A stretch of DNA of 64,000 nucleotides from Candidatus Binatia bacterium. Its GTDB lineage: Bacteria > Desulfobacterota > Binatia > HRBIN30. A program made the position numbers and the translations under genes. The notes under the pieces were generated by a model. That model was not told the DNA's origin. It searched no databases and worked only from the letters and a program-made list of their open reading frames with translations. Location of the stretch: positions 1-64,000 of the forward strand of contig CALAMI010000012.1 in assembly GCA_937925685.1 (NCBI GenBank), given 5' to 3'. Below, in pieces: positions 1,333 through 40,973 of this stretch (position 1 is the stretch's first letter; the number at the start of each line of letters is the position of its first letter).

Positions 1333-2154
1333 ATGGGAAACCAGGAACCTGGCCCGCAGGCAAATCGTACCTTGTCCGAACAGGATCACTTCGAGGTGCA
1401 TGACCTCGCTCCGGAGGTCTTTTACGAGCAGGTACACTCGTTTGAATTCTGGTTTCAGGCTGTCCAAGGGTACCTTTCGGGGAAGGTGTACGGAGTCGAT
1501 CCCAACCTCAGCGCGCCTAGTCTGCCCGACTTAGACCGTGATCGGCTAATCACTGTGCTGTGCAACTACTGCGTGGGAGAAACCGCTGCTCTCGAAGGCG
1601 CCAGCGGCCTCATCGCAATCGCCCCGAACCGGCACACGAAAATTTTTCTTTCCACTCAGGTGGTCGACGAAGGCCGGCATCTCGAGGTCTTCCTGCACCG
1701 TCTGCGTCTTTTGGACGTTGCCGACCCAGAGGGCGAAGTGGAACGACGGGCCAGCCGGAGTTTGCTGTTGTTCAAGCGTCGCCTCCTCGAACTCGTCAAT
1801 GGCAAGGATTGGGAAGCTGCGATTTTCGCGCAAAATGTGATTCTGGAATCGTTGGAATTCACCGTCTTTCAAAGCCACGCCCGTGAGGCCGATCCGGTCA
1901 CTCGCGACTTGCTGCTCGGCATCGTCAAGGACGAACGACGCCACATCGGGTTTGGCGAGAACGAGCTAGGTCGCCGATTGCAGCTAGCACCCCACATCCG
2001 TGCCCGGCTGGGACAGGTGAAGCGAGAGCTCGACCACTTGGTTCTCGATACCCTCGAGGAAACTTTGCTCGAACTCGGGGCCGATCCCGTGGAACGAGAA
2101 AAACTCGGACGGGCCTATCTCGAGGCCGCAGCTCGTTTGGGATTAGAAACGTGA
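1333..2154 (+). CDS. Ferritin-like diiron oxygenase/oxidase, second tandem copy
   Basis: The 273-residue protein is a divergent paralogue of the preceding gene. It keeps all six diiron ligands: E83 (VGETAA), E113 and H116 (DEGRH), E172 (ILESLEF), E201 and H204 (DERRHIGFGE). An N-terminal extension of about 25 residues is absent from the first copy. No strong ribosome binding site is visible at the chosen ATG, so translation may be coupled to the upstream gene. The stop overlaps the start of the zinc-ribbon gene by four bases (GTGA). Retention of every metal ligand in both copies argues that both are active, possibly as a heterodimer. Function beyond diiron chemistry is unknown. Confidence 0.72.
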   Translation: MGNQEPGPQANRTLSEQDHFEVHDLAPEVFYEQVHSFEFWFQAVQGYLSGKVYGVDPNLSAPSLPDLDRDRLITVLCNYCVGETAALEGASGLIAIAPNRHTKIFLSTQVVDEGRHLEVFLHRLRLLDVADPEGEVERRASRSLLLFKRRLLELVNGKDWEAAIFAQNVILESLEFTVFQSHAREADPVTRDLLLGIVKDERRHIGFGENELGRRLQLAPHIRARLGQVKRELDHLVLDTLEETLLELGADPVEREKLGRAYLEAAARLGLET

Positions 2155-2465
2155 CAGACCCGCTTCAGCAGGAAAGTACGACAGCAAAAGACCTGGAACT
2201 CGAGAGTCGACCACGTCAACGTTTCGAGTTGGAAGACACAGGCTTCGATGAGGTGCCTCCGCGGTTCCGCAAATTTTACCGCCGCTGGCGCGGGCCTGGC
2301 GACCAACTTGCCCCGAATGAGGTTATCTGCCCCGTTTGCAAGGTCGTAATCCGCTCAACCCGCGAACTCCGCCCCGGTGATCGAGTGTATTGTATGCCGT
2401 GCATGTCGCGCCTGATCGTTGTACGGGGGGAAGACGGTCGGCTCGAAGCTCGCGTTGCTTATTAA
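2151..2465 (+). CDS. Small zinc-ribbon protein of the diiron operon
   Basis: This 104-residue protein has a C-terminal four-cysteine knuckle pair, C60-x2-C63 and C81-x2-C84, typical of a zinc ribbon or rubredoxin-like site. The N-terminal half is acidic and probably disordered. A GTG start overlaps the stop of the second diiron gene by four bases, which implies translational coupling. I do not recognise a named family. The pairing suggests a partner for the diiron proteins, such as a one-electron donor if the site binds iron or a scaffold if it binds zinc. That is inference from position. Confidence 0.6.
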   Translation: MTDPLQQESTTAKDLELESRPRQRFELEDTGFDEVPPRFRKFYRRWRGPGDQLAPNEVICPVCKVVIRSTRELRPGDRVYCMPCMSRLIVVRGEDGRLEARVAY

Positions 2466-2513
2466 ACGCGGCCTTTCGCGCTCACTGGCCCAACGCAATC
2501 TCTCTCGTTCCAA

Positions 2514-3479
2514 CTAAAGGTCCAGTTCCCTCAAGAAGGCGATCAAGGCGGCGTTGACTTCTTCCGGTTTCTCTTGCTGGGTCCAATGCCCACACTCGGA
2601 AACCAAAATGGTGCGGGTAAGATTCGGAACCCATCGCTGCATGCCCTCTGCCATCTCCGGCCGCAAGACGGGGTCCCATTCCGCCGTGATCATCAGCGCA
2701 GGCGCCTGGACCTTCGCTCCAGAGAGATATGCGGTTGTTTCCCAATTCACCTCCATATTGCGGTACCAGTTCAAGCCGCCGGTAAATCCGGTTTCTTCAA
2801 AGGCTCGGGCGAACACCTCAAAATCCTGTTCAAGGATGTACCGGGGCAAAGGAGCATCGCCCAACCGCTCGAGTAAACCTCCCTCTCGCGGGCCAAACAC
2901 CCCCGGGGGATTCTCCTGAACGCGCTGGCGGTTCTCAGGCCGCATCTCCTGGTAAAAAGCGCGAAGGCTTCTCCGCACATCGCGGCCTAATTCTGCGTCC
3001 GCCACACCCGGCTCTTGAAAGTACAAGATGTAATGGAAGCGCCCCTGTGCCATTTCGCGCATCAAAGTCAGCGGCGACACCGGCAACCGCGGGAAGAACG
3101 GCGTATTCACCCCGACGACCCCGGCAACTCGATGCGGCGCCAAAAGCGCCATGTTCCATGTCACGACGCCACCCCAGTCGTGCCCGACGATGACCGCCTT
3201 CTCGATCCCGAGGCCGTCGAGCAAACTCGTGAGATCCCCTACCAGATGATGGATCGTGTACTTCTTCACCTCGACGGGCGCGCTCGTCTGGCCATAACCC
3301 CGCTGATCGGGGGCGATTGCACGGTACCCAGCTTGCGCCAGCGCCCGCAACTGGTGGCGCCAGGAATACCAAATCTCCGGGAATCCATGGCACAGCAACA
3401 CCGGAAACCCGTCGCCGGCTTCGACCACGTGCATACGGATCCCGTTAGCCTCTAGAAAGCGATGGTTGAATTCTGCCAT
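2514..3479 (-). CDS. Alpha/beta hydrolase, epoxide hydrolase-like
   Basis: The protein has the alpha/beta-hydrolase pattern of soluble epoxide hydrolases: the HGFPE oxyanion motif, the nucleophile elbow GHDWGG with Asp as nucleophile, and a late ECGHW His. Asp rather than Ser at the elbow points to epoxide hydrolase or haloalkane dehalogenase chemistry. HGFPE and the NWYRN segment favour an epoxide hydrolase, which would open an epoxide to a vicinal diol in the cytoplasm. I chose the ATG that begins MAEFNHRF (321 residues), because homologues start near here and GAGG precedes it; a TTG 12 codons upstream is possible. It converges with the diiron operon and is probably monocistronic. Confidence 0.8.
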   Translation of the reverse strand: MAEFNHRFLEANGIRMHVVEAGDGFPVLLCHGFPEIWYSWRHQLRALAQAGYRAIAPDQRGYGQTSAPVEVKKYTIHHLVGDLTSLLDGLGIEKAVIVGHDWGGVVTWNMALLAPHRVAGVVGVNTPFFPRLPVSPLTLMREMAQGRFHYILYFQEPGVADAELGRDVRRSLRAFYQEMRPENRQRVQENPPGVFGPREGGLLERLGDAPLPRYILEQDFEVFARAFEETGFTGGLNWYRNMEVNWETTAYLSGAKVQAPALMITAEWDPVLRPEMAEGMQRWVPNLTRTILVSECGHWTQQEKPEEVNAALIAFLRELDL

Positions 3480-3537
3480 GCCCTCGGCGATCTCACGGAT
3501 CGCCGGATCAATCAAGCCCGCTATGCCCCTTGGACGC

Positions 3538-5439
3538 TCAACGCAGGGTCAACTTACCCGTGAGTGGGCTTCTAACAAAGCGCCAGTTGTACACGTGAGC
3601 ATCAGGCCCCAGTCGCACCGCGATAGTCATCGCGAGATGGTCCGTACCCGCAAACTCACTGAGATCTCCCTCGCGTGCCGTAAAGCGTAAAGAGACCCCG
3701 CCCTCGGCTCGCCGAATGAGCCGCAAAGCAACCGAAAACCCATCGACCACGCCGAAAAACCGCCCGAGGCTATCGAGAGCTTCAAGCGAGCCACAAGGGA
3801 ACCGTTGCTCGTTCCGGCCATCGGACCAAAGAATTTCAATTGGCCCGGAGGTTGCCGTCGGGTAAGGGATACGAGCGTTTAACGTCCCCCGGCTCCCCGC
3901 TCCGGCAACCGGAACGAGCGTCGAGGCCCGCCGGGTAAAGCTCTGGTTCGTGATGCTGGCCTCGCTGCCACTCAAACTGCCCACAGTTCCCTCTGCGAGC
4001 CGCGTCACAACTCCAGACAAGCTCGCTTCCAGCTCGACAGGTTCGTCAGGATCAGCTCCGCTCCCGGCGAGCACCTGAATGCGGTAGCGCCCTTCCATCG
4101 CTTCGGGCACAGTGACGCGAACGTCTTGCACGCCGTTACTGTCAAAGTCGCCAACCTCATAACGTGCGAGCGGAATCGTGCTCGTCAGCCGGTTGACCAG
4201 CCGACCGGCTGGATCGAACACCACGAGCTCAATATTGCCGCGCGCTCGGACAACGAGATGCTTGGCAGGATTGGTCGCCCAAAACACCTCGTACCCACGG
4301 TCTGGATTCAGGCCCAGTGGGTCGCAATTCGAACGGTAAACCACGCGTCCGCCTTGGGCCGTTAGTTTCGGACCGACGATAATACAGCCCGGAGGATGCG
4401 AGGTCACTTGGGTAAAGGTCTTGCGTTGTCGATTGTACAGGAAAATTTCCGGCGATCGGTCTGGATTCAAACCCACAAGGTCCTCACGAGCCACAAAACC
4501 GATCCATTCCCCGTCCCAATCGATTGTCGGCTGCTCCGCGTCAAACGGACCGTCAATTCTCGCGGATACCAAGGTCGAGTAGCCGCTTTTCCGTCTAATC
4601 CACACCGCCGAAACGTTGTCCGGGTTCGCCCCTCCCCCCAGGTTGCTCGACGACACGAATACGATGAAGCGCCCGTTTCCACTCACCGCCGGCGCACTGC
4701 TCTCGCCAAAGCCTTCGACATCATTCGTGGCCTGGTAAAGGATACGTTCCTTCACGTCGTAAATCATGAGCTCCTGGCTGAAGTCTTCGTTCCGACCAGT
4801 CAAATTGCTGGTAGAAACGAAGGCCACCAGCGAACCATCGCCGGCCACGGCCGGGGTATAACTCTCCCCCTCTCCTTCCGGATCACGGCTGAGGGGCATG
4901 TTGCCTGAGCGGTTGAACAGGTAAACCTCGTTGCTCAAGTCGGGGTTTCGGGCCCGGAGGTTGCTCGTGGTCTCGAACGCAATTCGACGCCCTTTGAAGT
5001 CAATTGAAGGAAGCACGCTCGATCCATCTCCCAAACGGTCACGGGTCACTTGATAAAAGCGCCTACGCACTCGATCGTAACGGAAAATCTCCTCGCTTCC
5101 GTCTTCGTTCCGTCCGGTGTAATCTGCATCGGAAGAAAAGGCCACATAACGGCCGTCTCCCGAAATCACCGGATCGTTGCCCCCGAGAGTGGTGATTCGC
5201 GAAAACCGGCCCTCTTGAACATCGTAGACAAACACGTTTCCTATCGGCGTCGGGTTCAAGCCAGCCACATTGGCCGTGGAAGAAAACACGATCCAGCGCC
5301 CACTCGCATCCACCGACGCACCGCCGACAGCGCGGCCCGCGGGAGTATCCGTTACTTGCACGATCTCAGCAGCTAAAGCCGAGGCCCACACAGCCCAAAC
5401 AACGGCGACACACACGGACCATTGCGGAAACCGCTTCAT
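3538..5439 (-). CDS. Secreted TolB/PD40-type beta-propeller protein
   Basis: The protein of about 633 residues begins with a signal peptide (a KR pair, a hydrophobic stretch, and ASALAA as probable cleavage site). It continues with at least six repeats of a WD40-like PD40 unit, recognisable as 'ground/IVFSS... AN-L-G-NPD ... EIFLYDR ... F-QVT'. The C-terminal third is different: a beta-rich portion with a PPC-like segment (VRVTVPEAMEGRYRIQV). The fold implies a periplasmic or exported scaffold that binds protein or ligand. No catalytic residues are evident. It is divergently transcribed from the peroxiredoxin gene. No ribosome binding site is obvious, and a GTG two codons upstream is an equal start. 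Confidence 0.72.
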   Translation of the reverse strand: MKRFPQWSVCVAVVWAVWASALAAEIVQVTDTPAGRAVGGASVDASGRWIVFSSTANVAGLNPTPIGNVFVYDVQEGRFSRITTLGGNDPVISGDGRYVAFSSDADYTGRNEDGSEEIFRYDRVRRRFYQVTRDRLGDGSSVLPSIDFKGRRIAFETTSNLRARNPDLSNEVYLFNRSGNMPLSRDPEGEGESYTPAVAGDGSLVAFVSTSNLTGRNEDFSQELMIYDVKERILYQATNDVEGFGESSAPAVSGNGRFIVFVSSSNLGGGANPDNVSAVWIRRKSGYSTLVSARIDGPFDAEQPTIDWDGEWIGFVAREDLVGLNPDRSPEIFLYNRQRKTFTQVTSHPPGCIIVGPKLTAQGGRVVYRSNCDPLGLNPDRGYEVFWATNPAKHLVVRARGNIELVVFDPAGRLVNRLTSTIPLARYEVGDFDSNGVQDVRVTVPEAMEGRYRIQVLAGSGADPDEPVELEASLSGVVTRLAEGTVGSLSGSEASITNQSFTRRASTLVPVAGAGSRGTLNARIPYPTATSGPIEILWSDGRNEQRFPCGSLEALDSLGRFFGVVDGFSVALRLIRRAEGGVSLRFTAREGDLSEFAGTDHLAMTIAVRLGPDAHVYNWRFVRSPLTGKLTLR

Positions 5440-5529
5440 CGGCACTACATTGTGACGGCTGACCGGATCGTGTCAATGGAAATTCTCCGCCCTAGCTTCG
5501 AAGGCGTTCGTATGGCATAGAACCTCCGA

Positions 5530-5997
5530 ATGCTGCAAAAAGGGGATCGCGCTCCGGACTTCGAAGGTCTTACCGGCGACGGGCGGAACTTTCGCCTTCG
5601 CGACTATCTGGGCCGGCGCCACGTGGTTTTGTATTTTTTCCCTCGCGATTTTACTCCGGGGTGCACTAAAGAAGCCTGTTCCTTTCGCGATCATCGCGCC
5701 GAAGTGGCCCGCCTCGATGGGGAGATCGTTGGGGTCAGTTTGGATCCGGCTGATCGCCACGCCGCCTTTGCTGAAAAATACCGCTTGACTTTTCCTCTGG
5801 TGAGTGACACCGACGCGCGCATTGCCCAAAAATACGGCGTGGCCCGCCTTGGCGGCTGGCTACCAAGCAAGCGCGTTACCTTCGTGATCGATAAAGAAGG
5901 CGTAATTCAAGAGGTCATTCACAGCGAGTTCGGAATCGACATCCACGTCGATCGCGCCTTGGCGGCACTTCGCCGCCTTCAAGGCGAGGAAAAATAG
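5530..5997 (+). CDS. bcp: Peroxiredoxin, BCP/PrxQ type
   Basis: The 155-residue thiol peroxidase shows the PrxQ signature DFTPGCTKEAC. C45 is the peroxidatic cysteine and C50 the resolving cysteine five residues on, the atypical two-Cys arrangement of bacterioferritin comigratory protein. It would reduce hydrogen peroxide and organic hydroperoxides in the cytoplasm using thioredoxin. Its length matches the family. It stands alone, and a small inverted repeat follows its stop codon. Confidence 0.93.
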   Translation: MLQKGDRAPDFEGLTGDGRNFRLRDYLGRRHVVLYFFPRDFTPGCTKEACSFRDHRAEVARLDGEIVGVSLDPADRHAAFAEKYRLTFPLVSDTDARIAQKYGVARLGGWLPSKRVTFVIDKEGVIQEVIHSEFGIDIHVDRALAALRRLQGEEK

Positions 5998-6003
5998 TTC
6001 CCC

Positions 6004-6020
6004 GTCACCTGATTGGTGAC
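6004..6020. terminator. Inverted repeat after the peroxiredoxin gene
   Basis: GTCACC and GGTGAC form a perfect six-base stem with a five-base loop, starting seven bases after the bcp stop codon. There is no T-run, so it could be a weak or factor-assisted terminator or a protein-binding site. Confidence 0.3.
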
Positions 6021-6152
6021 AGCGCTCAGCGGTCAGAAAATTCCGTTGCCGCTCGAGATCACGCTCGTTGTTCGCGTCGCACGGTAAGCCAGACCCTTGA
6101 GCACCCGGTACCTTCCGTTGACGCCAGCCCGTGCTTCGTTGCGGCATGGTCT

Positions 6153-6180
6153 TTGACGTTCGCCCCGCGTTGCCTATAGT
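6153..6180 (+). promoter_or_regulatory. Sigma-70 type promoter of parC-parE
   Basis: TTGACG (6153-6158) and TATAGT (6175-6180) are separated by 16 bases, a near-consensus housekeeping promoter. The predicted start near 6187 gives an untranslated leader of about 65 bases before the GTG start of parC. Confidence 0.6.
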
Positions 6181-6252
6181 AATGGCCACGGTTTTTGGTG
6201 GAGGAAGTTGGGGACTGAGGCCAGCGTTGGCCTGACCAGGAGGGTAACCCCG

Positions 6253-8592
6253 GTGAAGGAACAAATTCAGCACCCTGTTCCGGTCATTGACCTAGGGCGG
6301 GCCGTGGAAGAGCGCTATTTGGCGTATGCGCTCAGTGTGGTCACCGCGCGGGCACTGCCTGACGTGCGCGACGGACTCAAGCCCGTTCAGCGCCGGATTC
6401 TTTACGCCATGTTCCAGAATCTGCGGCTCACTGCGGGAGCACGCCCGAGAAAATCCGCTGCCGTCGTCGGTGAAGTCCTGGGGAAGTACCACCCTCACGG
6501 TGACCTTGCGGCTTACGAGGCCATGGTGCGGATGGCTCAACCCTTTACCATGCGCTACCCGCTGGTGCACGGCGAAGGCAACTTCGGGTCCTTGGATGGG
6601 GACAGCCCAGCAGCCATGCGCTACACGGAAGCACGTTTGTCACCGATCGCTGAAGAACTGCTGCGCGACGTTCGGGAAGAGACTGTCGATTTCCGCGACA
6701 ACTATGATGCAACCTTACGGGAACCCATTGTTTTGCCTGCGGCTATTCCCCAATTGCTCATGAACGGCAGCACCGGAATTGCGGTAGGCATGGCCACAAA
6801 TATTCCACCGCACAATCTCCGGGAAGTTGTGGAAGCCCTCGTCGCCTTGATTCGCAATCGAAAGCTAGAAAGCAAAGACCTCTGCCGCTTCATCAAAGGA
6901 CCTGACTTTCCCACCGGTGGTGAAATTCTCAACACAAAGGCTGAACTCCGCCGGATATACGAAACTGGCCAGGGACCCATTCGGCTGCGGGGTCAATTCA
7001 CCACAGAGATGTCCGGGCGACACCGCCGTGTCGTGATCACCTCAATCCCCTACACCACGAACAAGGCAAAAATTGTGGAAGAAATTGCCGAACATATCGC
7101 CACCCGCAAGTTGCCATTGGCCACTGACGTGCGTGACGAATCCACTGAACAGGTGCGCATTGTCGTCGAGCTCAAGGGCGACGCCTCTGCCGAAGCGGTG
7201 ATGGCGTACTTGTTCAAGCACACCAGTTTGCAAATCACCTATCACGCAAACTTCACCGCCCTGGTTCCCACGGCAACCCCCGGAATCGGCCAGCCGGAAC
7301 GGTTGAGTCTCAAGGATCTTTGTGGTCACTTTCTGGACTTTCGCTTTCTCGTGGTCACGAGGAGGTTGGAACACGAGCTCAAACAGCTTCGGGCCCGCCT
7401 CCACATCCTCGCCGGGTTTTTAAAGTTGTTTCATGATCTCGATCACGCTCTGCACATTATCCGCAACGCCTCCTCCCGGGAGGAAGCCCGGCAAGGGCTG
7501 ATGAGTGCCTTTCGACTCGACGTAGAACAAGCCGAGGCCATCCTTGAAACACGCCTCTACCAGCTGTCTCGGCTCGAGGTTGGCCGCATTCGCGAGGAAC
7601 AAAAGGAGAAAGCCGCCCGCGCTGAGGCCATCGAACGGCTGTTGGCACAGCCGCAAGCACGGTGGAAGCTCGTCGAAGACGAACTTTTGGCGGTGGCGCG
7701 CCAATACGGCGACGCCAGGCGCACGCAGCTACGCGCCGGTGCCGAGCTGGTATACGATGCGGAAGCGTATGTCGTTCATGAAGACTCGGTCGTGGTCCTG
7801 ACGCGCGATGGTTGGATAAAGCGGATGGGTGAGCTCAAAGACCCGGCGTCGACCCGAGTGCGCGAAGGCGATCAGGTACAATGGGTCCTTCGCGGTAGCA
7901 CCAAAGATTATCTCGCCCTCTTCACGAACCGAGGCATGCTTTATGTGATAAAGGTACTTCAAGCACCTGCTACCACCGGCTACGGCGAGCCCGTACAGTC
8001 GCTCCTCAACTTCGGCGACGGCGAGCGGGTCATTGCCGCAACGCTAATCTCGAGCGAACACGACGGCCAGGGCAGTTCCTTTCCCGCAGCGTGGGTTGCT
8101 CTTAGCGCCGCTGGCTTTGGCGCACGGATCAAACCCGACTTCAGCGAAACCACCAAGAGCGGCCGGCGCATTGCGCGCCCTGCAGAAGGGGACGAAATTG
8201 CCGTCTTGGTCCCGGTTACTGGCGCAACCCTGACCGTAGCGACCGCTGGCGGTTATGTCCTCTCCTTTTCCATCGAGGAACTCCCCGAACTTGCTGGCGC
8301 GGGGCGAGGCGTGCGGGCGATTCGCGTGGGTCCGGGAGACCGGGTGCTCGGCGGCGTGTCCCATGCCCCCGACAGCCCTCCGATTGCCGTGGACGAACGT
8401 GGCGAGCGGCGTCGATTACACATCAGTGAACTGGGTCATCGTGGTCAGCGGGGACGCCCGCTGCTCAAGCGCTTCAAGCTGCTGTCTTTACTTCCGCGAG
8501 AGGAGAACACTTCTCTAACCCGCGGTTCCAAAGCGCCCGGCGTGCTGCCATTGCCCCTGAAGGGAAGCGACAACGGATCGAGCAAGCCATGA
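6253..8592 (+). CDS. parC: DNA topoisomerase IV subunit A
   Basis: This is the DNA-cleaving subunit of a type IIA topoisomerase. The catalytic tyrosine lies in MRYTEARLS (Y124 from this start), matching Y122 of GyrA and Y120 of ParC in E. coli. The N-terminal winged-helix region carries QRRILYAM and HPHGD, and the C-terminal third contains the beta-pinwheel strands. I see no GyrA box (QRRGGKG), so topoisomerase IV rather than gyrase is favoured. The GTG start is chosen because AGGAGG lies nine bases upstream; a TTG 15 codons earlier lacks such a site. The quinolone-determining residue is Leu instead of Ser (HPHGDL). Its stop overlaps parE by four bases. Confidence 0.88.
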
Positions 8593-10487
8593 CGCGAAAA
8601 TACACCGCGAAAGATATTACCGTCCTCGAAGGTCTTGAGCCCGTTCGCAAAAGGCCAGGAATGTACATTGGAGGAGTAGACCGCGCCGGACTTCATCATT
8701 TGCTGTGGGAGATCTTGGATAACGCGGTCGACGAAGCCATCAACGGCCACTGCGACGAAATTACGGTGACCTTGCACGAGGACGGCAGTACCGTAACGGT
8801 GACCGACAATGGGCGCGGGATTCCTGTAGACGAACACCCGAAGTACCGCCGCCCAGCGCTCGAATTGATCCTTACCACACTGCACGCGGGAGGTAAGTTC
8901 GAGAACCAAAACTACTATCATTCTGGAGGACTGCACGGAGTCGGTGCCTCTGTGGTGACAGCCTTGTCTTCCCGTCTCATTGCGCGAGTCAAACGCGATG
9001 GCTTCCTCTGGGAGCAGGAGTTCTCGCGTGGAACACCGAAAACCAAACTACAACGAAAAGGACCGGCACGTGGTACCGGTACCTCGATCACCTTCACCCC
9101 AGATCCCGAGATCTTTCCTCAACCCCAATTCGATTCCACGTGGATTCGCGGACGGCTTGAGGCTCGGTCTTTCTTGCACCGTGGGCTCAAGCTCGTGTTC
9201 GAAGACCGCACCGCGGGTTTGCGCGAAGTCTTCACACACGAGCGCGGCATCGCCGAGTACGTAGAGAAGTTGCTGCAGCAGTGCGGAGCGCAACCCGTGA
9301 GCGAGCCCATCTACCTCGAACGGCGTGACGGACTCATCATCGAGTGTGCTCTCGGCTGGACCACCGCCACCACCGAGCGTGTGCAATCCTACGTGAATGG
9401 GGTACCCACCCCAGCGGGGGGAACACACGAAACCGGCTTCAAGGCTGGGCTGAGCAAAGCAGTGCGAAACTACCTGCTTGTACAGAACCTCATTCCCAAA
9501 GGGATTACGGTTGCCGGGGAAGACACGCGTGAAGGCTTGGTCGCCGTCCTCAGCGTGTACTTGCAGCAGCCGCAGTTTCAGGGGCAAACCAAAGACCGGC
9601 TCAACAACCCCGAAGTGACGGCGCCGGTGGACAATTTCGTCCGCACCTCGCTCGAAAACTACCTGCTGCAAAATCCCTCACAAGCGCGCGCCATTGCTCA
9701 GCGGGTCATCTTGGCCGCACGCGCACGGCTTGCCTCCCGAGCCGCAGTAGAAAGCGTTCAGCGGAAAAGCTCAGTCTCGCACCGCTTGAATCTTCCGGGA
9801 AAGCTCGCTGATTGCAGTTCGACCGACCCCCGCGTGAGCGAACTCTTCATCGTCGAGGGCGACTCTGCTGGCGGTTCCGCCAAACAAGCACGTGACCGAG
9901 AGTTCCAAGCGGTCCTCCCGCTCAGAGGTAAGGTGCTGAACGCAGAACAAGCTTCGGCGACAAAACTTTTCGCCAACAAGGAGCTGAACGACATTATTTC
10001 GGCACTAGGCTGCGGTGTGGGCAAGGACTTCGACCCCAATAAGCTGCGCTACCACAAAGTCTGCTTGCTGATGGACGCCGATTCCGATGGCCATCATATT
10101 TGCACTCTCTTGCTGACCTTCCTGTACCGGCAGTTGCCCGAGCTCATCCGCCGAGGGCACGCTTACATCGCTCAACCGCCGCTTTACAGAATCGAGCTCG
10201 GTAAGGAGACGCATTGGGCTTACAACGACGAGGAAAAGGAGCGCATCCTCGCCAAAGCCAATGGCCGTGCGGTCGCGGTCCAACGCTTCAAAGGACTTGG
10301 CGAGATGAACCCAACCACCTTGAAGGAAACTACGCTCGATCCTCGCAAGCGCGTGCTCCTCCGGGTAGAAGTCGTGGACGAAGAACAAACGGATCGAACC
10401 ATCCAAACGCTCCTTGGCCGTGACGTCGAGCCCCGGTTTCGCTTCATCATGGAACGAGCACGCCAGGTGGCAGACCTTGACGTCTGA
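8589..10487 (+). CDS. parE: DNA topoisomerase IV subunit B
   Basis: The 632-residue ATPase subunit partners ParC. The GHKL ATP-binding site is seen in [10 protein letters not shown] (Mg-binding Asn), DNGRGIPV and the GLHGVGAS loop. The TOPRIM domain shows [15 protein letters not shown] and the acidic MDADSDGHH motif that binds magnesium for cleavage. It ends with the usual family tail (VADLDV). The ATGA overlap with parC indicates translational coupling and equimolar production. The A-then-B order is the reverse of many parE-parC operons. A gyrB assignment cannot be excluded from this protein alone, but the partner lacks a GyrA box. Confidence 0.88.
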
Positions 10488-11037
10488 TTAGCCACTTTCC
10501 ATCTTTTCGCGTTTTCCTTAAGGCCCTACCCCACTCAGCGCTCACCGATCGTCGTTCCCGAGCCTTAGCTCGTCGCCGTCGAGCCTTCCTGCACGATCGC
10601 AGAAGCCAAAACTACAACTGCGAAAACAGCCCATCTCGCTCTTACTTCGATTACGGCCAGTGAATCACCGCCCAACACGGTCTTTCCCTCCTCCCACTGC
10701 AAGGCCCTTGAAGCTACGCCGGACGTCGCCCGTTGGCTTGTCGTGCCAGCCCCACCGGCCGTCCACGGAGTGATCCTGGGCTGAACCTCGCTACCTCCTC
10801 CCGCCACTGACGCCCAATTGGTGGTTGCGTTGTCCCAGGAGGAACACAGCGCCGTCGGATGCAGTGATGACTACCTCTCACCTCGCCCGATCCCTTGCAA
10901 TCCCCAGGAGATTGCAAGCAAGAACGCCGCAAAGCAGTACGTTTTCGCGGAACAGCTTCCCGACAACAGGCACGGCACCCTGACCAAACCCCAAGCAGCT
11001 CGCGGTCGCTGCTCGCGGTGCCGGCAACGAGCGCGCC
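10488..11037. other. Convergent intergenic region after parE
   Basis: About 550 bases lie between two converging genes. Short open frames occur on both strands, but none has a ribosome binding site, motif or plausible composition. The only structure I can support is a nine-base perfect stem described separately. Confidence 0.5.
10894..10918. repeat. Nine-base perfect inverted repeat
   Basis: CTTGCAATC and GATTGCAAG are perfectly complementary across a seven-base loop (CCCAGGA). There is no T-run on either side. It lies in the parE/amidohydrolase convergent gap and could be a terminator core, an RNA-processing hairpin or a protein-binding site. Confidence 0.4.
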
Positions 11038-12357
11038 TCAAGCGCTCACCGTATCATCGGGAACCGATGCGTAAACGGTCGCAAGCTGTTGCAGAATGTC
11101 TTGGGTAGTTACTGGGCGCTTTTCCGTTGTCGGCGGCTTGCCGCCTTTGGAACGCACCGTCAGATCGACATCCTTGGCTTCCGCCCGTAAAGCACCAACC
11201 GTACATTGTTCACGCGCTCGATACGCAAAGGGGTCGAATCCGAAAAACCGGATGGCGTTTTCATGAGTGATCTTGTCGACGTCCTCCCGGGGCACATCGC
11301 CGAAGCACTCCCAGAGTCTTTCCGGAGACTTTGGCCAGGTGCTGTCGGAGTGGGGATAATCGCACTCCCACGTGATCGTGTGGACCCCAATAATGTCGCG
11401 ATTTCGAATGCCGACCGGGTCATGGATAAAGCAAGAGATGCAGTGCTCGCGCCACACGTCGCTGGGTTTACGTCCGCCGAAATCTTGATGCGTCCAAGCG
11501 TGGTGCCGTTCATGTACGTAGTCGGCCCGCTCCAAGAAGTACGGCATCCACCCGATGCCACTTTCTGACAGGGCGAAACGAATTTCCGGGAAATCGCGCA
11601 ACACCGGCGACCACAGCAAGTTCACCGCGCAATCTACCGAGGCAATTGGCTGTAACGTGATCATCGTATCTACAGGGGCATCCATTGCCGCGAACTTCAT
11701 CCCCGATCCGGAGCCAATGTGGATGCAGATGACTGTGCCCTCGTCTACACAAGCTTTCCAGAAGGGCCTCCAATAGTCATTGTGGATACTCGGCCAACCA
11801 TGGGCCTCGGGGCTCTCCGTAAAACTCACGGCGCGACAACCTTTGCGCGCCAGCCGACGAACTTCTTCTGCCATCAGTTGCGGGTCCCAACACGGGAGCA
11901 GTCCCAACGGAATGAACCTCCCCGGATGCGAGCCACACCACTCGTCAATGTGCCAATCATTGTAAGCTTTCAGCATGATCAGGGCGGTTTCGCGGTCGGC
12001 GTGTTTGGAAAACTTCTCCCCGAAAAGGCCGGGAAAGGAAGGAAAGCACAGCGAGGCAAGAACGCCATTTGCGTTCATGTCGCGGATCCGTTCGTGTACG
12101 TTGTATGTCCCGGGCCGCAGTTGATCGAACGAGGTAGGCTCCATGCCGTATTCTTCGGGTGGGCGTCCAACGACCGCGTTCAGAGCAACATTTGGGTACT
12201 GCTCCCCGCCGAACACCCAAACGTCGCTACCATCCTTCTTCCGGACCAGCCGGGGAGCCTTTGGCTTCCACTGAGCAGGCAGGTGCTGATCGAACAAATT
12301 CGGAGGCTCAACAACGTGATCGTCCACGCTAATCAGAATCATGTCCTCCATCTTCAT
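11038..12357 (-). CDS. Amidohydrolase family protein (PF04909)
   Basis: The 439-residue enzyme belongs to the amidohydrolase-2 (ACMSD-like) TIM-barrel family. The metal-binding DDHVVEP motif is at the N-terminus, a second histidine is in ICIHIGSG, and the late metal aspartate is in WECDYPHSDSTWP. Relatives hydrolyse or decarboxylate aromatic and cyclic acids; the substrate here is unknown. Family members are often found near acyl-CoA and aromatic degradation genes, consistent with the thiolase and DUF35 genes upstream on the same strand. GAGGAGG lies eight bases before the ATG. A 12-base palindrome sits about 30 bases upstream of the start, suggesting repressor control separate from the thiolase genes. 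Confidence 0.82.
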   Translation of the reverse strand: MKMEDMILISVDDHVVEPPNLFDQHLPAQWKPKAPRLVRKKDGSDVWVFGGEQYPNVALNAVVGRPPEEYGMEPTSFDQLRPGTYNVHERIRDMNANGVLASLCFPSFPGLFGEKFSKHADRETALIMLKAYNDWHIDEWCGSHPGRFIPLGLLPCWDPQLMAEEVRRLARKGCRAVSFTESPEAHGWPSIHNDYWRPFWKACVDEGTVICIHIGSGSGMKFAAMDAPVDTMITLQPIASVDCAVNLLWSPVLRDFPEIRFALSESGIGWMPYFLERADYVHERHHAWTHQDFGGRKPSDVWREHCISCFIHDPVGIRNRDIIGVHTITWECDYPHSDSTWPKSPERLWECFGDVPREDVDKITHENAIRFFGFDPFAYRAREQCTVGALRAEAKDVDLTVRSKGGKPPTTEKRPVTTQDILQQLATVYASVPDDTVSA

Positions 12358-36526: not shown

Positions 36527-38674
36527 ATGAGCGGTCGGGTCAAGCGGTGGTGGGCTACTGTTTGGTGTCTAGCCGTGGTGCATGCTGCACCAGCAGCCAA
36601 AGCATCCGGTGCACGCTGTGTGGGTGACTGCGACGGCTCGGGCAGCGTTTCCATTAACGAGGTCGTTCGTATGGTCAACATTGCTCTGGGTCGCCAAGCT
36701 CTTGCACTGTGCCCCGCAGGCGACAATAACGAAGACGGCGCGATCACGGTAGACGAGATCGTCGCCGCGGTGGAGTATCTGCTGCGTGGCTGCCCTCCCC
36801 CACCCACGCCAACGAGCTTCCAGCCCACGCCGACGCCGACGGCGCCACCTCAACAATGCGGGAACTACAACCCCGAAAGACAGGTGTTCTTTGGCGACCT
36901 ACACGTACACACCGCTTACTCGTTCGACGCGTACACTTGGGATGTGCGCACGACTCCTGCCGATGCTTATCGCTTCGCTCGCGGAACGCCCATTGCGCTG
37001 CCCCCACTGGATGCCACTGGTAACGGCACGCGTCTCGCTCGCATCGACCGACCGCTGGACTTCACCGCCGTTACAGATCACTCGGAGTTCCTCGGCGAGG
37101 TTTCCCTCTGCTCTACGCCCGGCTCACCAGCCTACGACACGCTCACTTGCCAGAACTTTCGGCAGGGTTTCGCCGAATCCCAGTTGGACTTCGGCGCGCG
37201 CCTGTCCGTGCGCCGGCCGCAACGGGCGGCCGACGTTTGCGGCGCTGATTGGCAACGGTGCCTCGAAGTAGCCGGTGACGTGTGGGAGCGTATCCGCGGT
37301 GCTGCGGCGCAAGCGTACGAGCCGTGCCGATTTACCACTTTTATTGCCTATGAGTACACTAACGCGTTGGCTGGCAGTACGCTGCATCGCAATGTCGTCT
37401 TCGCCAACGATCGTGTGCCGCCTCCAGTGAGCACGTTCGAGCAAAACACCCCCGAAGGGTTGTGGCGCGAGCTTCAACGGGTGTGCACCCAGCAAATTCC
37501 AGGCTGCGACGTCATCGCAATTCCCCACAATTCCAACGAAAGCACGGGCCGCATGTTTACCGTGGAGTACGGTGGGGCATCTTCTATCGAGCAGCAGCGG
37601 GAGCAAGCATCGCTTCGGGCGCGGATGGAAGTACTTGTGGAGGTTTTCCAGCACAAAGGCTCGAGCGAGTGCTTTGCCGGGCTGTCGAGTGTCCTGGGAG
37701 TCCCTGACGAAGCCTGTGACTTCGAGCCGCGCCAGCGGGGAGAGCTGACCGACTGCGGCGAAGGCGTCGGTCAGCTCGGGGCTGCTGGACGTGGCTGTAT
37801 CTCGCGCCGGGATTACGTCCGCAACGTCTTAGGGATGGGCCTGCGAGAATACGCTCGGCTTGGCGTCAATCCGTTTTCCTTCGGTTTGATTGCCAGCACC
37901 GACACCCATAACGGCACGCCTGGCCGGGTTGCGGAATACGAATTTCAAGGCCACCGTGGCTCCGCCGAGGCCACGCCTGGCGGTTTAATTGGATACGATG
38001 AACTTGGAGAGGCGACCGTGCTGTTCAACCCAGGCGGTCTCGCTGCCGTCTGGGCCGAGGAAAACACTCGCGAGTCCATCTTCGCTGCGTTGAAACGTAA
38101 AGAAACGTTTGGCACTAGCGGCCCCCGCATCGTGGTGCGCTTCTTCGCCGGCTGGGATTTACCCCCAAACTGGTGCGAGAGCCCAGAGCGGATCGGAGTC
38201 GGCTACAGGCAGGGCGTTCCCATGGGCGGGACGCTGGTGAGGAATTCGAGCAACGGGGCGCCCGTGCTTGCCATTGCTGCCGAGTCTGACCCTGGCACTG
38301 TGGAGCACCCAGGCACGCTCCTTCAGCGGATCCAGGTCATCAAAGGGTGGCTGAGCCACGGCCAGCCACAGTTACGTATCTACGATGTCGCTGGCAATGC
38401 CAACAACGGGGCTAGCGTCGACGTACGGACCTGCACACCGACCGGCCCGGGGTTTACCCGCCTTTGCACAGTATGGCGTGATCCGGATTTCGACCCCGAA
38501 AACCCCGCGTTTTATTACGTACGCGTGCTGGAGAATCCGTCATGTCGGTGGCATGTTCACGCGTGCAATCAGTTGCCCCCCGAGAGCCGGCCATCCGCGT
38601 GTAACGACCCGACGCTGCCGCGAACCATCCAAGAACGAGCTTGGACATCGCCGATTTGGTATCTACCGGGCTAA
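36527..38674 (+). CDS. Secreted DUF3604 protein with dockerin-like EF-hand pair
   Basis: The 715-residue protein has a signal peptide, then two calcium-binding dockerin-type loops: D34 to E45 (DCDGSGSVSINE) and D66 to E77 (DNNEDGAITVDE). A Pro/Thr linker (about residues 90-109) and the DUF3604 domain follow. DUF3604 is PHP-like: FFGDLHVHTAYSFDA carries D124, H126 and H128, followed by VTDHSEFLGEV and FGLIASTDTHNG, all expected metal ligands. It is probably a metal-dependent phosphoesterase or related hydrolase outside the cytoplasm. Many cysteines suggest disulphides, fitting the PPIase upstream. GAGGAG precedes the ATG. The dockerin pair is typical of Binatota secreted proteins as far as I know. 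Confidence 0.88.
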   Translation: MSGRVKRWWATVWCLAVVHAAPAAKASGARCVGDCDGSGSVSINEVVRMVNIALGRQALALCPAGDNNEDGAITVDEIVAAVEYLLRGCPPPPTPTSFQPTPTPTAPPQQCGNYNPERQVFFGDLHVHTAYSFDAYTWDVRTTPADAYRFARGTPIALPPLDATGNGTRLARIDRPLDFTAVTDHSEFLGEVSLCSTPGSPAYDTLTCQNFRQGFAESQLDFGARLSVRRPQRAADVCGADWQRCLEVAGDVWERIRGAAAQAYEPCRFTTFIAYEYTNALAGSTLHRNVVFANDRVPPPVSTFEQNTPEGLWRELQRVCTQQIPGCDVIAIPHNSNESTGRMFTVEYGGASSIEQQREQASLRARMEVLVEVFQHKGSSECFAGLSSVLGVPDEACDFEPRQRGELTDCGEGVGQLGAAGRGCISRRDYVRNVLGMGLREYARLGVNPFSFGLIASTDTHNGTPGRVAEYEFQGHRGSAEATPGGLIGYDELGEATVLFNPGGLAAVWAEENTRESIFAALKRKETFGTSGPRIVVRFFAGWDLPPNWCESPERIGVGYRQGVPMGGTLVRNSSNGAPVLAIAAESDPGTVEHPGTLLQRIQVIKGWLSHGQPQLRIYDVAGNANNGASVDVRTCTPTGPGFTRLCTVWRDPDFDPENPAFYYVRVLENPSCRWHVHACNQLPPESRPSACNDPTLPRTIQERAWTSPIWYLPG

Positions 38675-39679: not shown

Positions 39680-39785
39680 TTACAACCTCCTTTCGTTTCG
39701 TTGGCGATCAACGGCGTCGCCGCCTCCAAGAGCGCAAGCGTTGCCACGCTGTCAAAATTAGCGCAAGGGGAGGAGACGGTTGTCG

Positions 39786-40973
39786 ATGGAAAACCATTCG
39801 CGAGAGCAACACGAGCCGTCGCCGTACGGACTCCCGGGGAGGCGAAAGTACAAGTTTGTCGATTGTGCTGCGACTGCCGCTCCCGGTTTCCGCAACCACA
39901 TCTACCCGGTCGAGCGCGTGGAGGAGTTTGTCACACGTTTTGGACCCGAAGACTGTTTCGCCACCATTTTCTTCTTCTCCGAAGAGGTTCTTCTTTACCT
40001 TGCGGAGCACCGCGTCAATGATCACCCATCGATTGCCGGATTCGACGGCAGGATCTGGGCTGCGTTCCTGCCGTTTGACATTGATGGTGAGCCCTCCTCG
40101 GATGGGCTGGCAGCAGCCTTAACGCTTGCACGGCAGACCTACACGTTTCTTCAGCGCCACTGGTGTCTGCCAGAAGGGGCGATTCACATTTACTTCAGTG
40201 GCCACAAAGGCTTCCACTTACTCGTCGATGCGCGTGTCTTCGGTCGAATCGCACCAACAAACGACCTGCACCGTATTTTCTCCCTCCTAAGGCTGCAGGC
40301 ATGGCGTTTACTTGGAATGCCTGCTGGAGCAGCACGTTTTGACCTAGCCATTGGGGACAAAGTGCGCCTTCTGCGACTCGCCAATACTCGACACCGGCAA
40401 AGCGGTCTTTATAAAGTACCGCTGTCTGCCGAGGAGCTACACGCTCTCACCACTGAGGAGATCCTGGTCCTCGCTCGCGCCCCCCGACCTTTGACACGGG
40501 CCTTGTTTCGCGGTTTGTTGCCCAGCGAGCCGGTCGGACCTGTAGGACCCGCTCAGGCAACGTTTTCCCAAGTGCGCCGCTTAGCCCGGCGAGGCCGCCC
40601 TCATCCCTATCGGCTACCGCAGCCTCCACAAGATTTGACCGAGGCACTTTGTGTCGCACGGCAACACATGCTCCGGCACGATATCCCCCGAGGCATGCGC
40701 AATAACGTGGCCATTCGCTTGGCTTCTGCACTTCGCCGTGCCGGGTATACCCTAGCTCAAAGCAGTGCAATCCTGGGCGAATGGAACCGCCGCCTGACTG
40801 TCCCACTTCCCGCTCGAGAACTCCAAAGCGTTATTCGCTCGGCCTACGCCCGTGCTTTCCCTTACGCTTACGGGTGCCACGATGAGGTCATCCGCCTTTT
40901 CTGCCCTTTTCGCGATCGCCTCTTCGATTGCGAGGTCTATCGCAAGCAGCACCTCCAGCAGGGAGCCGACTAG
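39786..40973 (+). CDS. Archaeo-eukaryotic-type primase (AEP) family protein
   Basis: The 395-residue protein has all AEP catalytic motifs. D98 and D100 are in LPFDIDGEP, H140 is in IYFSGHKGFH, and a third acidic motif with conserved arginines is RFDLAIGDKVRLLRLANTRH. The C-terminal part (about residues 285-360) resembles a PriCT helical domain (RNNVAIRLASALRRAGYT ... WNRRL ... VIRSAYA). The tail has C365, C374 and C383 with H366, a possible metal site. GGGGAGG precedes the ATG. No helicase, ligase, phage or plasmid gene is adjacent. It could be a primase-polymerase for DNA damage bypass or a remnant of a mobile replicon. Confidence 0.8.
   Translation: MENHSREQHEPSPYGLPGRRKYKFVDCAATAAPGFRNHIYPVERVEEFVTRFGPEDCFATIFFFSEEVLLYLAEHRVNDHPSIAGFDGRIWAAFLPFDIDGEPSSDGLAAALTLARQTYTFLQRHWCLPEGAIHIYFSGHKGFHLLVDARVFGRIAPTNDLHRIFSLLRLQAWRLLGMPAGAARFDLAIGDKVRLLRLANTRHRQSGLYKVPLSAEELHALTTEEILVLARAPRPLTRALFRGLLPSEPVGPVGPAQATFSQVRRLARRGRPHPYRLPQPPQDLTEALCVARQHMLRHDIPRGMRNNVAIRLASALRRAGYTLAQSSAILGEWNRRLTVPLPARELQSVIRSAYARAFPYAYGCHDEVIRLFCPFRDRLFDCEVYRKQHLQQGAD

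Follow-up and report, generated by a model that had tools for sequence, protein, structure and literature searches.

The window analysed here, a stretch of 64,000 nucleotides from a Candidatus Binatia assembly of 3.7 Mb in 51 contigs, carries a gene at 39786..40973 on the forward strand that combines an archaeo-eukaryotic primase (AEP) domain with a PriCT domain in 395 amino acids counted from the ATG. The open reading frame covers 39780-40973 (+), and the TTG at 39780 would give a protein of 397 amino acids. The ATG at 39786 matches the start of the HRbin30 orthologue (74% identity). Residues are numbered by the 397-residue frame; ATG-based numbers are lower by 2.

The PriCT_1 domain (PF08708) was identified by Pfam C-terminal to the AEP domain with an E-value of 5.5e-11, which confirms the PriCT-like domain reported in a preliminary description of this DNA. 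That description suggested a profile search including PF01896, as well as structure prediction. PF01896 was sub-threshold on the window protein (Pfam E 0.1), and a single-sequence search of PDB returned nothing but chance RNase T matches. When a profile of 16 sequences was used, Sulfolobus PriS was matched at E 1.2e-7. The AlphaFold2 model of the protein (pLDDT 84) showed the AEP catalytic fold in residues 22-256 (39843..40547, +), with Z-scores of 12-14 to PriS/Pri1, Prim-PolC, LigD and CAPP. The matches to Prim-PolC (Z 13.9), human Pri1 (13.7), CAPP (13.4) and LigD (about 13) are all effectively tied.

The three catalytic motifs were compared in alignment A2. Motif I, D100-x-D102 (40077..40085, +), is at least 90% conserved. 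In motif II, SGHKGFH at residues 140-146 (40197..40217, +), S140, G141, K143, G144 and H146 are invariant. Motif III, D193-K-V-R196-L-L-R199 ... H205 (40356..40394, +), aligns with the DxxRLIRxPNSxH of PriS; R196 and R199 are invariant, and D193 and H205 are at least 90% conserved. The catalytic-motif residues are thus invariant or nearly so in the 16 homologues, with the exceptions of H142 and F145, which vary. The motif I DxD, the motif II SxH, the motif III aspartate and the AEP fold place the protein in the AEP superfamily. The stand-alone AEP with three catalytic motifs of the preliminary description is therefore borne out by conservation, by the PriS profile match and by the predicted fold. 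The protein is presumably an active enzyme. Its N-terminal PriS-like domain would add nucleotides, with D100, D102 and D193 binding metal and with H146 and the R196/R199/H205 set binding the incoming NTP.

The four-cysteine tail and its likeness to PriL

Four conserved cysteines surround the PriCT_1 helical bundle (residues 301-358; 40680..40853, +). C291 (40650..40652, +) precedes the domain and is invariant in the 13 chromosomal homologues covering it, while C366 (40875..40877, +), C375 (40902..40904, +) and C384 (40929..40931, +) follow, the first two invariant and the last at least 90% conserved in A2. Across the chromosomal clade described below, all four are invariant. This order of 1+3 cysteines around a helical bundle is the order of the PriL Fe-S domain. 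The preliminary description listed the tail cysteines as C365-C374-C383. Its three cysteines are present, but each position is off by one (366, 375 and 384, or 364, 373 and 382 from the ATG), and the fourth invariant cysteine, C291, was missed. The PriL-like character that it suggested for the tail is better supported than proposed, given the four cysteines, the alignment with PriL and the fold matches.

The isolated C-terminal domain (residues 281-397) was modelled with a pLDDT of 92. When its fold was compared with those of PriX and the PriL C-terminal domain (PriL-CTD), PriX scored best (Z 8.6), followed by the Fe-S domains of PriL at Z 5.2-6.7. All of these stand above unrelated entries, but a Z of 5-7 for PriL is modest for a helical domain. 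The four-cysteine domain likewise resembles the iron-sulfur domain of human primase. Sulfolobus PriL was matched by a profile of nine phage and plasmid homologues at E 3.5e-4, with all four cysteines in register in an aligned stretch of E 5.6e-4, and this profile aligned with the window family over the full length (hhalign E 1.5e-76). Without this intermediate, the C-terminal profile of the window family gave no significant match, either to the one archaeal PriL used or to PDB sequences. A relation of PriCT to the PriL Fe-S_N domain was already described by Kazlauskas et al., with two of the four cysteines aligned for PriCT-2 (PMC5862659), and conserved cysteines in the PriCT of CAPP were noted in the CAPP paper (PMC8211822).

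A candidate site for the initiating NTP, G305-M-R307-N308-N309 (40692..40706, +), opens the central helix of the bundle, which covers residues 304-320 in the AlphaFold2 model. G305, R307 and N308 are invariant. R72 of PriX and R306 of human PriL serve initiation (PMC5700102), and from its position in this helix we infer that R307 is their equivalent.

The window protein shares with PriS-PriL/PriX the PriS-like catalytic domain, a four-cysteine, probably PriL-CTD-like domain and the candidate initiating-NTP arginine. It differs from PriS-PriL in being one chain, in lacking the PriL N-terminal domain and in belonging to a bacterial host that also has DnaG. This anatomy, PriS and a PriL-CTD-like domain in one chain, is very probable. 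A metal centre in the tail is predicted with high, slightly lower confidence, and an Fe-S type for this centre is favoured over other types with moderate confidence. The PriCT-1/four-cysteine domain would then act as a built-in PriL-CTD, in which C291, C366, C375 and C384 would hold the metal centre, most likely [4Fe-4S], and pin the helical bundle. R307 would hold the 5' initiating NTP, and the first dinucleotide could therefore be made de novo.

Chromosomal residence and relatives of the primase

Ten neighbours of the gene were scanned. They encode acyl-CoA dehydrogenase, MaoC, epimerase/DUF1731, PEBP, GT87, ROK and similar domains, and none is a phage- or plasmid-type, helicase, ligase or cas gene. 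For these ten, the earlier statement that the primase stands apart from helicase, ligase, phage and plasmid genes holds. No tRNA was found in the 64-kb window. In the congeneric HRbin30 the primase gene has the same neighbours over about 17 kb, and a second congener has the same gene order as the window; outside the genus the position of the gene differs (L040). The primase is intact in all three genomes of the genus. Its 74% identity to the HRbin30 orthologue is similar to that of the adjacent epimerase and GT87 genes. Between the window and HRbin30 the primase dN is 0.175 with dS saturated, and the closer pair L042/L047 gave a dN/dS of about 0.18. The gene is under purifying selection in the genus. 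The primase was found in four of the seven genomes of the window's own family. In family f6, seven near-full-length and two fragmentary or weak matches were found in 25 genomes; one of the seven is broken by two in-frame stops (G407, L043 8086-9279). Similarly, the copy of Scalindua rubra (L011 9995-10635) has an internal deletion.

Homologues from phages and plasmids show 25-43% identity. Moorella phage MTATph1 CDS0062, Thermus phage P23-45 gene 40 and Bacillus plasmid pAD3 were compared as stand-alone AEP-PriCT primases, and they share with the window protein the AEP and PriCT domains, the four-cysteine pattern and a similar length. The tail is therefore not unique to the window protein; it is present in phage and plasmid primases beside or fused to DnaB-type helicases. 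A simple sequence pattern detected the four-cysteine module in 35 of 80 IMG/VR relatives; this is a lower bound because the pattern undercounts fused viral proteins, and several relatives scored '--' carry the tail cysteines. For most stand-alone IMG/VR relatives (about 320-370 amino acids), a DnaB-like gene is encoded no more than 3 kb away, and some of these genes are annotated as DnaB. The stand-alone phage and plasmid primases belong to replication modules in which a DnaB-type helicase gene is close by, unlike the chromosomal clade: no DnaB-like gene was found within 3 kb at the 13 chromosomal loci.

The 13 chromosomal sequences were placed on one side of a branch, against 57 others, with an SH-aLRT of 99.8 in an unrooted tree of 70 sequences, where L012 and L013, which derive from genome contigs, were assigned to the mobile-type set. 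The clade has members in the class of the window (families f1 and f6) and in another class of its phylum (f89), and one further member on an Omnitrophota contig. The preliminary description would have regarded the gene as a mobile remnant if its homologues always lay in prophages or integrated plasmids. This fails for the window's clade, with 13 separate chromosomal sequences, no DnaB-like gene within 3 kb, synteny and purifying selection. The survey of genomic context that it suggested gave a divided result, in which the window clade is chromosomal and the deeper kin lie in phage and plasmid replication modules. Mobile ancestry is likely because these deeper kin are phage and plasmid primases; an origin from such replication primases is the direction we infer, the tree being unrooted. 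Beyond bacterial chromosomes, the window protein has its closest kin among phage replication primases, and so it looks like a phage-type primer-making enzyme adopted by some bacteria, possibly for repair under stress.

The PrimPol-PV1 supergroup also has an AEP fused to PriCT, as in the window protein. Its members are nearly always on mobile elements and have a relaxed motif II histidine (PMC5862659), whereas the window gene is chromosomal and H146 is invariant. As a conserved, chromosomal, one-chain protein that bears four PriL-like cysteines, the window primase departs from the view of PriCT primases as (nearly) exclusive to mobile elements (PMC5862659). It also adds weight to the relation of PriCT to the PriL Fe-S domain.

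Cellular role and alternative explanations

DnaG was found in nine of ten carriers tested, which indicates that this primase is additional to DnaG. No DnaG match was found in the window assembly. The ftsI orthologue, which lies about 2.5 kb from dnaG in HRbin30 (comparison locus G360:C3:32000-48000, L159), is also missing there, its best match being a 35% paralogue. Replacement of DnaG by the window primase was therefore rejected, and a gap in the assembly is likelier. PriL was absent in the four carriers tested, and no partner gene common to all lineages was found.

In the related family f6, the primase is flanked by genes of a stress or dormancy type, which encode Usp, CBS, BON, dienelactone hydrolase and phosphoribosyltransferase, and also NAPRTase, NAD synthase, GNAT, RtcB and archease. 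Stress-marker matches numbered 28 in 85 kb near the f6 primase, and 9 of these came from four loci that had not contributed a query. The remaining f6 DNA examined, 203 kb of hand-picked control stretches, gave 0 matches. This neighbour set resembles the DosR dormancy regulon, and the resemblance presumably extends beyond Rv2623, RtcB and the phosphoribosyltransferase. In mycobacteria, the DosR dormancy regulon includes these three, Rv2623 being a universal stress protein (PMC5309233). No stress markers were found around the window gene, so a stress role in the window lineage would be extrapolated from f6.

The anatomy and the chromosomal residence of the window primase are well supported, and its maintenance by the host as a chromosomal gene is highly probable. 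The reading that we prefer, and consider reasonably probable, is a complete, single-chain, chromosome-maintained primase that supplements DnaG, most likely in repriming or gap repair. Such an enzyme would act on exposed single-stranded DNA besides DnaG and without a dedicated helicase; its most likely task would be repriming or gap repair, and in at least one lineage it would be part of a stress or dormancy programme. Taken by itself, this task, perhaps under stress, is given slightly less than an even chance. The most specific version, a cellular one-chain PriS/PriL-type [4Fe-4S] primase recruited from phage or plasmid replication and used with DnaG for repriming under stress or dormancy, is offered tentatively. 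If true, the protein would be a bacterial functional counterpart of eukaryotic PrimPol. It is a candidate bacterial repriming enzyme besides DnaG, and it provides a small soluble system in which to test what the debated Fe-S domain of primases does.

Several alternatives were weighed against this repriming primase. The same enzyme could hold structural zinc with its four cysteines, because Zn and Fe-S are indistinguishable in sequence and the spacing between the last cysteines varies among homologues; this is rather unlikely given the probably PriL-CTD-like fold and the single cysteine before and three after the bundle, in register with the Fe-S cysteines of PriL. A mobile remnant, a prophage or plasmid replication primase passively carried with no cellular role, would agree with the phage and plasmid nature of the deeper homologues, the patchy distribution, the broken copies and the reported near-exclusivity of PriCT-AEPs to mobile elements (PMC5862659). 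It is improbable when the gene is intact with the same neighbours in all three genomes of the genus, is under purifying selection, has no phage or plasmid genes among ten neighbours and falls with all 13 chromosomal sequences into one group apart from the mobile ones. About equally improbable is a gap-filling DNA/RNA polymerase of the Prim-PolC/LigD type, which would serve break or excision repair and would not prime de novo. The AEP fold is shared with Prim-PolC and the LigD polymerase domain at Z 13-14, and the highest single score, Z 13.9, belongs to mycobacterial Prim-PolC with gapped DNA, although the PriS-type matches are level with it. The window protein, however, adds PriCT-1 and the four-cysteine tail and lacks the ligase/Ku linkage: no ligase is among its neighbours, Ku was found in just five of 13 carriers, and both R307 and the PriL-CTD/PriX-like domain suggest a part in initiation.

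A CRISPR-associated primase-polymerase, CAPP-like and used in spacer acquisition, is the least probable of these explanations and is considered very doubtful. MpCAPP too has an AEP and a PriCT with conserved cysteines. In one locus (L009, the same place as L003), the AEP (9980-11140) lies about 0.2-0.25 kb downstream of a 6-repeat CRISPR array (9384-9793) that ends a type I-B-like operon (1455-9217) with Cas7, Cas5, Cas3, Cas1 and Cas4. This adjacency occurs in that single locus; no CRISPR accompanies the gene in the sister locus L048, no cas genes lie beside the window gene, and Cas1 was found in no more than seven of 13 carriers. The window protein also lacks the TPR, RT or helicase fusion of CAPP and its association with CRISPR-Cas operons (PMC8211822). 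These counts for Ku and Cas1 speak against an obligate NHEJ or CRISPR role. PADLOC gave no matches, no defence neighbours were found, and the CRISPR, Ku/NHEJ and defence links were rejected; with no PADLOC match and no consistent link to CRISPR, the "unlisted defence-type enzyme" of the preliminary description is unsupported. Ku was not found in the window genome. A weak, split Cas1-like match just above the Pfam cut-off is present in the window assembly in one 348-residue frame (G000:C11:750-1412), and also in G360:C4; the frame is possibly a divergent Cas1 relative.

Further neighbours were recorded. At the two f89 loci (L003 2304-3362 and similarly L002; verified for one), the AEP is followed by a gene for futalosine hydrolase, an enzyme of the menaquinone pathway, and a tentative mqnD in L010 found no confirmation; the link to menaquinone was judged coincidental. 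In the sister genus, the AEP is preceded on its own strand, at a distance of 25 bp, by a gene for a beta-CASP metallo-beta-lactamase-type nuclease (L007 8456-9967; L040 3330-4841), and the two may form an operon. Within the window, 36527-38674 encodes a 715-residue DUF3604-like protein with an N-terminal dockerin-like stretch, recognized by eye, and this protein is 85% identical in HRbin30.
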